From NCBI GenBank assembly GCA_021779955.1, contig JAJXZS010000020.1:1-64000 (forward strand): a stretch of DNA of 64,000 nt. The letters are read 5' to 3'. The stretch comes from Chloroflexota bacterium. GTDB taxonomy: Bacteria; Chloroflexota; Anaerolineae; Anaerolineales; Anaerolineaceae. The notes below the pieces were generated by a model that was given only the letters and a program-made list of their open reading frames with translations, had not been told where the DNA came from and did not search any database. Made by a program: the position numbers and the translations under genes. Shown in pieces: positions 21,021 to 23,617 of this stretch (positions within the stretch are counted from its first letter, which is position 1; every line of letters begins with the position of its first letter).

Positions 21021-22088
21021 TCATACGATTTCGATACCGCTGCCTTCGACCACTTCACCGATTTTCCATACCGGTTGATCGACCGCTTTGGCGCGGTTCT
21101 CCCATTGCGCCACCCTGTCAGCAGGGACCGAAAGGAGCAATCCCCCGGACGTCTGCGCATCGAAGAGCAGCATCTTTTCATGTTCTTCCAGCTTGCGCGA
21201 CCAGGTCACGCAGGGGCTAAAGTATTCGAAGTTGTCATAGGAACCGCCCGGGAAGATGTGTTCCCTGGCATATGGCAGCGCATTCTCGAGCACAGGAATG
21301 GATTCGAAGAAGAAGCGAAAACCCACCATACTGGCTTTGGTCATCTCACAGGCGTGCCCCAGCAGGGCGTAGCCCGTGATATCCGTGGCGCCTCTGAGGT
21401 GATGCTCGATTGCGAGCTTGCCAGCCGACCGATTCAAGCGCGTCATCCACGAGACGGCTAATGCAACGTCTTCTGCTTTCGCCACGCCGCGCTTCAGGGC
21501 AGTGGTGATAGCGCCGAAACCGAGAGGTTTCGTAAGGTAGAGGGCGTCGCCAACGCGGCAGCCGGATTTGGTCAGCATCTGATCCAATTGGACAAACCCT
21601 GCGACGACCAATCCATATTTGGGCTCGTCATCCTGAACGGTGTGGCCGCCAGCGATTACCACGCCTGCAGATTTGGCAATCTCGGCGCCCCCGCGAATGA
21701 TTTGCCGTGTGATCTCAGGCGGAAGGGAGGCCGGAAAAGCGGAGATATTGAGCGCAAGGAAAGGTGTACCGCCCATGGCGTATACATCTGAGAGACTGTT
21801 GGCTGCAGCAATGCGGCCGTAATCATAACCATTATCCACGACGGGGGTGAAGAAATCCGTAGTCAATACCAGGCCGCGAGTGTCGTCCAGCTTCCACACC
21901 GCAGCATCATCCGGAGAATCCATCCCAACGACAAGCGATGGATAATCCGTGGCATTGAAAACCTCCTGCATCGGGCGCAGCACCTGCGCCAGCGCTTCAG
22001 CGCTCAGCTTGGAAGCTCAACCCGCGCATTTGGAGAGCGAGGTCAGGCGGATCATCTTGCCCGAAGGATGAATTTCATTCTTATCCAT
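21021..22088 (-). CDS. selD: Selenide, water dikinase with in-frame UGA (selenocysteine)
   Basis: 355 residues when the TGA at 22019-22017 is read as selenocysteine 24. The in-frame reading from the ATG at 22088 is LTSLSKCAGUASKLSAEAL, matching the SelD active-site loop (Cys17 and Lys20 in E. coli correspond to Sec24 and Lys27). The rest follows without a break: DDAAVW, TTDFFTPVVDN, ANSLSDVYAMGG, AGGHTVQDDEPKYG and the C-terminal DAQTSGGLLLSV. It makes selenophosphate from selenide and ATP. A simple annotation would start it at the GTG at 21983 and lose the active site. A TATAAT box lies six bases before the ATG, as in other leaderless candidates here. Confidence 0.9.
21974..21990 (-). promoter_or_regulatory. 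Candidate bacterial SECIS hairpin of selD
   Basis: On the minus strand GGCGCAG-GTG-CTGCGCC forms a perfect 7-base-pair stem with a GUG loop starting 34 bases after the UGA. That lies within the range known for bacterial SECIS loops, and the loop contains the GU expected by SelB. A competing AGCGCT/AGCGCT hairpin lies between it and the UGA. Confidence 0.5.
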
Positions 22089-22169
22089 GGCTTGATTATA
22101 TCCAATCCTGGAGCCAAAGGCACGGTCAGCCTGTCAGGCAGTGTTCGCCGCCGTACTATAATTAAAAAG

Positions 22170-22862
22170 ATGAACGAGACACGGGGTATGCTCAGTGAAA
22201 TCTTTCTCACGCCGATCGGCCGCGGTGCCCGCTTGAGCTGTGCGAGCGCTTTGCGTCCCATAGCGGGGCAATACCTCCTCGCCCATGCGGAAGGAACCCA
22301 TCAGGTCCTTCCGGCCGCCTTGTTCGTCCGTGCCGCGGATGGCATGGATCTGGTCATTGCGCCCCCGGTACCGGAGGATTGGCTGCCCGGCACCGAAATT
22401 TACTTGCGCGGCCCGCTCGGAAACGGCTTTCACCCGCCAATAGCGGTGCGCCATATGGTGCTCGCCGATCTGAGCGGTCACCAGGGTCAACGACTTTTGA
22501 AACTGGTGAGCGACGCTGCAGATACGTCCATGGAGACAGTGCTGCTCAGCGATTCCGCTCCAGCCGACCTGCCCCTTGAGATCGAATTCCTTCCGCTCAA
22601 GGCCTTCAACGAGGTGCTTGCCTGGGCCGACTACCTGGCAGTGGAAATGGGACTGCAGCAGATGAATTTGCTGCGCGAACTCAGCGGGGTGCAAACCAAT
22701 CGCGATTTTCATTCGGCTTTCGAAGTGCTCGTGGATACGCCGCTCATCTGCGGCGGGATCGCCTCCTGCGGGGTCTGCTCGGTGAGGGTAAATAATCACT
22801 GGCAACTCGCCTGTAAAGATGGCCCTGTCTTTCGCCTGAGCCACCTCAGCGAGGACGAATGA
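22170..22862 (+). CDS. PyrK-like 2Fe-2S protein (dihydroorotate dehydrogenase electron-transfer type)
   Basis: 230 residues. The end resembles PyrK: DTPLICGGIASCGVCSVRV and ACKDGPVF, with four cysteines (194, 200, 203, 215) able to hold a 2Fe-2S cluster. The spacing C-x5-C differs by one from the usual C-x4-C. The front resembles the FAD/NAD reductase fold (GPLGNGF, 81-87). The ATG at 22170 is chosen because TATAAT (22157-22162) ends seven bases before it. Starts further upstream would overlap the divergent selD. The stop overlaps the next gene by ATGA, so the two products probably form a complex. The electron donor and acceptor are unknown. Confidence 0.7.
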   Translation: MNETRGMLSEIFLTPIGRGARLSCASALRPIAGQYLLAHAEGTHQVLPAALFVRAADGMDLVIAPPVPEDWLPGTEIYLRGPLGNGFHPPIAVRHMVLADLSGHQGQRLLKLVSDAADTSMETVLLSDSAPADLPLEIEFLPLKAFNEVLAWADYLAVEMGLQQMNLLRELSGVQTNRDFHSAFEVLVDTPLICGGIASCGVCSVRVNNHWQLACKDGPVFRLSHLSEDE

Positions 22863-23617
22863 CCCAGCGGGAGCGCTTTCTCGACCGACTCGAATTGTCC
22901 ACGCCGTGGATGAATGCAGCGGGGTTCCTGGGTTATTTTCCGCCGACGCAGAGATCCTGGGGCGCGCCGATGGGCGCCTTCGTGACCAACCCGGTCAGTC
23001 TACTTCCGCGCAAGCCTGCACAGCTTCGCCAGGTGGTAGAGTATCCCGGTGGTTTCCTGCTGCACACCGGCTTGCCCAGCCCAGGCATTGCGAGTGTGCT
23101 CAAGCAGAACGCCGCGAGATGGGGCAAAATTGCTGTTCCGGTTTGGGTGCACCTTCTGACGCAGACGCCCGCTGAATTGCCCGAAATGATCGAAACGCTC
23201 GAAGGTGTGGAAAACGTCCGCGCTGTGGAATTGGGAATTCCGCCAGGCGTGCCTCTCAAAACCATCCTCGAGTTCATCCATGCAGCCAGCGGCGAAATTG
23301 CGACCATCGCCTGTATTTGCGTGGACGAGATTCAAAACGAGTGGATATCCTCCATCCAGGATGCAGGCGCTGCAGGCCTGGTGCTTGCCGCCCCACGAGG
23401 GATGCACAAGAACAGCAATCGCTTAACGCGCGGACGCCTTTACGGCCCTGCCATCTTTCCGTACATGCTCAACGCTGTATGCCGCCTGGCGCAGCACGAC
23501 CTGCCCATCATCGCTGGTGGGGGTGTTTACTCGCAGGCAGACGGTGAGACTCTGCTTGAAGCAGGAGCAGCGGCAGTTCAGTTGGATGCTGTGTTATGGC
23601 GGAACTGGGAGACCTAA
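22859..23617 (+). CDS. Dihydroorotate dehydrogenase-like TIM-barrel flavoprotein, active-site motif missing
   Basis: 252 residues, against about 300 for PyrD. The start ([16 protein letters not shown]) and end ([29 protein letters not shown]) match the class 1 DHODH barrel and its FMN-phosphate site. The stretch that should read NxSCPN is ELGIPPG, so the catalytic Cys is absent. Orotate synthesis is therefore doubtful. Coupled to the PyrK-like gene (ATGA) and convergent with dtd, overlapping it by four bases. I treat it as a divergent paralogue of unknown reaction. Confidence 0.65.

Follow-up and report, generated by a model that had tools for sequence, protein, structure and literature searches.

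The selD gene is encoded on the reverse strand of the window, that is, the whole stretch of 64,000 nucleotides that was analyzed, where it occupies positions 21021..22088. Read through an internal UGA, the coding sequence starts with the ATG at 22088, contains a single in-frame TGA at 22019-22017 and ends with the TGA at 21023-21021, resulting in a protein of 355 amino acids including Sec24; its translation, the TIGR00476 model and full-length relatives from the family support this assignment. With Cys substituted for Sec, the protein scored 352.3 bits with TIGR00476 (cut-off 125) and 337.4 bits with PRK00943 (cut-off 299). A preliminary description of the locus had proposed this frame and had placed the TGA at the position of the catalytic Cys of SelD. 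The frame is borne out by the sequence and the read-through translation, and a phmmer alignment sets residue 24 (codon at 22017..22019, reverse strand) opposite Cys17 of E. coli SelD (3u0o). An alignment to both Sec- and Cys-containing SelD proteins was run as well, in which the TGA codon matches the Cys/Sec site. The catalytic motif of the SelD family, U/CxxK, is present as U24-A-S-K27. On these grounds it is almost certain that selD encodes a selenophosphate synthetase, also termed selenide, water dikinase, with Sec as the predicted catalytic residue, inserted at the UGA at 22019-22017.

The mechanically generated list of open reading frames begins selD at the GTG at 21983 (codon 36, 21981..21983, reverse strand), giving a product of 320 amino acids that has lost the active-site loop, just as the preliminary description had expected of an ordinary gene caller. 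It is very unlikely that this shorter protein, a SelD without the Sec/Cys loop, is the true product. The residues ahead of the UGA are conserved at the protein level, with 360, 270 and 730 differences to the window gene at the three codon positions over 110 rows; the Cys-SelD genes contain the same N-terminal motif within one open frame; and the GTG itself forms the apical loop of a hairpin, termed H2 below. A promoter and terminator scan returned nothing for the start of selD. Divergent from selD, on the forward strand (22068-23617), are two genes resembling the electron-transfer subunit of dihydroorotate dehydrogenase and dihydroorotate dehydrogenase; both score far under the NCBIfam cut-offs, and the second passes the Pfam DHO_dh cut-off.

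Conservation of the in-frame UGA and of the preceding Cys

The family survey covered 61 genomes, 48 of which, the window's included, together encode 51 SelD genes that are both full-length and stand-alone. The codon for residue 24 is TGA in 49 of these 51 genes, one of which (L055) has an extra TGA ahead of its likely start; the remaining two genes encode Cys, with TGC in genome G017 and TGT in G049. The other 13 genomes yielded no more than SelD fragments (those from G024, G034 and G052 include the TGA), a long fusion protein with Cys, weak matches to related enzymes or no match at all. A search across the phylum detected a SelD match at E 1e-40 in 315 of 400 genomes, and the matches listed mostly contain one TGA. 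When named genomes were searched, all of the best 80 of 191 matches had the TGA (80/80); these 80 were picked by similarity and belong mostly to Clostridia and their kin, and the four nearest are MAGs of Anaerolineales, Caldilineae, Chloroflexi and Caldilineales.

Two further types of SelD sequence were observed in the family. G004, G025 and G032 each encode an additional Sec-SelD (L055, L057 and L061), in which the motif reads CSGUASK[FY]. In addition, frames of 735-796 amino acids without internal stop contain a SelD-like part in G004, G010, G016, G028, G029, G033, G044, G048 and G056; these probably represent the known oxidoreductase-SelD fusion.

The TGA could stem from an error in sequencing, or from a nonsense mutation if the gene is decaying, and a single draft assembly (56 contigs) cannot alone rule out an error; yet the identical codon in nearly all of the family genes and in all 80 named matches, together with a frame conserved on both sides of the TGA, makes this extremely improbable. 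We give just as little credence to UGA being read as an ordinary amino acid, through another genetic code or suppression. The selD frame is open with any residue assigned to the TGA, but TGA also ends 15 of 46 mechanically chosen non-overlapping window ORFs of at least 200 amino acids (not all of which need be genes) and serves as the terminal stop of selD itself, and the genome encodes selA, selB and tRNA-Sec (see below). The conservation of the TGA, the conservation of the frame and the TGA-terminated ORFs led us to reject all three explanations: error, pseudogene and alternative code.

Sec24 is preceded by a Cys at position 21 (22026..22028, reverse strand), resulting in the motif CxxU (C-A-G-U). 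A Cys three residues ahead of Sec is found in all 78 distinct Chloroflexota rows and in 108 of 111 rows of a wider Chloroflexota set, which still includes the duplicate loci L167 and L175, compared to none of 76 other named rows, mostly from Clostridia. E. coli SelD differs in having Gly at this position and a second Cys at +2, and the table of a 2026 review gives the SelD motif as UxxK (PMC13188914). It is plausible that CxxU in Chloroflexota SelD could act as a redox pair.

Two hairpins downstream of the UGA

The main SECIS candidate is H2 (21974..21990, reverse strand), a perfect 7-bp stem with the sequence GGCGCAG-GTG-CTGCGCC, a GUG loop at 21983-21981 and a folding energy of -11.3 kcal/mol, for which covariation and a comparison with synonymous recoding provide the evidence. 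This hairpin and its loop had been noted in the preliminary description and were found as described there; only the distance to the UGA, put at 34 bases, had to be revised to 33 nt from UGA to loop, one base having been counted differently. The gap between UGA and stem is 26 nt. Section 5 of PMC13188914 gives the limits of the bSECIS model as a spacing of 16-37, a stem of 4-16, a loop of 3-9 with G then U and an energy of -7.5 kcal/mol. H2 shows no difference to this bacterial consensus in spacing (33), stem (7), loop (3, G then U) or energy, and the earlier view of it as a plausible SECIS agrees with all of these published values.

Compared to dinucleotide shuffles, the folding of the H2 region did not stand out: z was -0.41, and 62 of 200 shuffles folded equally well or better. 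Since the region codes for protein, synonymous recoding is the best null for the hairpins, and it was applied to a set from which rows with identical first 66 nt had been left out. Of the 109 Sec genes, 92 have an H2 stronger than synonymous recoding at p ≤ 0.05, versus one of the 11 Cys genes; because the sequences are related, the counts from this comparison are non-independent. For the stretch from UGA+3 to +60 the result was weaker than for H2 alone (48/109 Sec genes, 2/11 Cys genes). In the window gene, H2 and the upstream hairpin H1 each reached p 0.01; in 13 of the 109 Sec genes neither of the two was significant against synonymous recoding.

Covariation was analyzed over the 78 distinct Chloroflexota Sec genes, that is, with L167 and L175 dropped, and compared to 500 shuffles. 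The H2 stem is paired in 94.0% of cells, and 23 cells are changed on both sides; neither value was matched by any of the 500 shuffles. Changes on both sides occur at three pairs (34/500 shuffles), and the number of further pair types is unremarkable (94/500 shuffles). Slid versions of the stem are paired in only 27.5 to 60.3% of cells; the covariation score is not distinctive, being 0.134 for a slide of -1 versus 0.130 for the unslid stem. The loop reads GTN in 78/78 genes, GTN being also a Val codon of SelD, and RNAalifold predicted 5 of the 7 H2 pairs on the alignment. Taken together, these results show that the H2 hairpin is under selection.

Between the UGA and H2 lies H1 (21991..22004, reverse strand), with the sequence AGCGC-UGAA-GCGCU, its loop 17 nt after the UGA and an energy of -6.2 kcal/mol, which would be an accessory or alternative SECIS. 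It is conceivable, though unlikely, that H1 is the recoding signal proper or acts jointly with H2, so that H2 alone would not be the SECIS. Of the 109 Sec genes, 44 have an H1 that beats synonymous recoding, as the window gene does, compared to none of the 11 Cys genes. Furthermore, four distant relatives (L216, L219, L231 and L232) have the best hairpin detected at the H1 position, its loop containing G, with no H2 visible; among these, H1 is significant against synonymous recoding in L219 only. A shift of the SECIS position in these lineages is a guess. H2, in contrast, is better conserved than H1 (84.1% of cells paired for H1 over the 78 genes) and more often significant, and the window H1 misses the -7.5 limit of the consensus and has the loop UGAA. 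RNAalifold predicted no H1 pairs on the alignment. H2 is kept as the main candidate.

Sec machinery and the probable destinations of selenophosphate

The genome of the window is a draft of 2.83 Mb in 56 contigs with a listed completeness of 100 and contamination of 3.19. It was searched for selA, selB and tRNA-Sec, the lack of which the preliminary description had named as evidence against a Sec-containing SelD; all of them are present, at 550.4 bits (cut-off 267.9), 324.2 bits (cut-off 242.25) and 73 bits (gathering score 47), respectively. The same searches exceeded the cut-offs in one, two and five of 14 control genomes. ARAGORN also called a tRNA-SeC with the anticodon TCA. The selB frame is shifted at a run of 10 N (L004:2740-2749, contig C19), resulting in two ORFs; because the run splits the two frames, this is probably an assembly matter. 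The presence of these three genes makes likely the working Sec system in this lineage that the preliminary description had implied.

In the family survey, no selA match was found in the two Cys-SelD genomes G017 and G049, and G013 has neither a selA match nor SelD. G008, G014 and G408 encode selA without SelD beyond weak matches (G008 and G014 at E 0.001, G408 searched at 1e-40 only), perhaps due to assembly gaps. Cys-SelD was considered as a marker for loss of the Sec system, which fits one genus (2/2 genomes, for selA only) and fails elsewhere: in two other families, selA is present in 9/9 Cys-SelD genomes (stop-free rows among the matches listed, G017 excluded), as it is in 9/9 Sec-SelD genomes. 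A Cys-SelD thus does not indicate that the Sec system has been lost.

One FdhA match in the window's genome is over the cut-off; it is stop-free and has Cys at what is presumably the usual Sec site, and four further, weaker FdhA rows contain no stop either. MnmH/YbbB, the marker of the selenouridine trait, gave no match in this draft genome (TIGR03167, E 0.001). The genes yqeC and yqeB are adjacent on contig C35 (L243:6680-8280), scoring 155.8 bits for YqeC (cut-off 73.05) and 269.6 bits for YqeB (cut-off 220). As set out in PMC9312934, the joint presence of SelD, YqeB and YqeC marks the Se-cofactor trait; the window's genome has this marker set, since SelD is present and both yqe genes are over their cut-offs. 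Because FdhA is of the Cys type, MnmH was not found and yqeBC is present, selenophosphate probably also goes to the Se-cofactor route. In G017 (L189:6581-10427), the Cys-selD gene adjoins yqeC-yqeB; farther on are an XdhC-like gene, which scores below its cut-offs, and then sufC, sufB and sufS. This arrangement fits with SelD being retained by the Se-cofactor route.

A SECIS model derived from selD (R1) was run against the gene's own genome, with 150 of 2174 first-look candidates scored. selD itself reached 74.4 bits, followed by ten weaker matches, the best of which had 16.6 bits (E 0.07); inspection by eye of TGA codons ahead of these ten yielded no convincing recoded frame. Judged from this single SECIS model and from the FdhA family, the genome may encode few selenoproteins in addition to SelD, perhaps none.

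In the model that we infer, the ribosome at the UGA (22019-22017) would be served by SelB carrying GTP and Sec-tRNA-Sec, and this complex would be held by the downstream stem-loop, chiefly H2, perhaps with H1 assisting, so that Sec is inserted in place of termination. Selenophosphate, the product of SelD, would be used by SelA to form the Sec-tRNA-Sec required for the synthesis of SelD itself, and would probably also enter the YqeB/YqeC route to the selenium cofactor of molybdenum hydroxylases. A wider reading is more tentative and, as a whole, rather doubtful: the Sec machinery might be kept chiefly or only for SelD, the product of which goes to the Mo-hydroxylase Se cofactor, making a self-referring loop; Cys-SelD might stay where the Sec system seems lost (the genus of G017 and G049, in G017 beside yqeC-yqeB); CxxU might be a redox pair; and the tandem hairpins might have shifted their roles between lineages.

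Comparison with known selenophosphate synthetases

Sec-SelD is a long-known selenoprotein family, to which the window gene adds a little-studied bacterial group. It ranks with the most widely distributed selenoproteins of bacteria in a 2006 paper (PMC1794560) and in the 2026 review (PMC13188914), and for the reference set described in PMC4561486, Sec occurs in 19% of SelD genes, always at this position, and the bSECIS was recovered by RNAz. Three Chloroflexi selenoproteins are given in a table of the 2006 paper (PMC1794560). Our literature search found no description of Sec-SelD in Anaerolineae, which is no proof of absence. Because a mechanical ORF call cuts selD at the SECIS loop, a genome may look as if its Sec system had no selenoprotein to serve. 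For Anaerolinea thermophila UNI-1, a study of Chloroflexi single cells (PMC4959059) mentions a Sec elongation factor, yet no dehydrogenase annotated with Sec; a Sec-SelD, if present in this strain, would explain such a combination.

Compared to Cys-SelD (E. coli 3u0o; G017 and G049), the window protein belongs to the same family and has the same active-site position, where Cys replaces Sec in the former. No hairpin selection was seen in the Cys-selD genes of G017 and G049, unlike in the window selD. Having both Sec and Cys selD genes inside one phylum also provides natural controls for studying how the SECIS evolved. With known Sec-SelD (TIGR00476) the window gene has in common the predicted Sec in the N-terminal loop, the UxxK motif, a full SelD domain, the candidate bSECIS downstream and the Sec machinery in the genome; it differs in the Cys of CxxU and in having two adjacent hairpins. 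Possible additions to the known family are modest: a CxxU motif, two hairpins in tandem for which the Cys genes serve as comparison, and a Sec loop that may serve itself.
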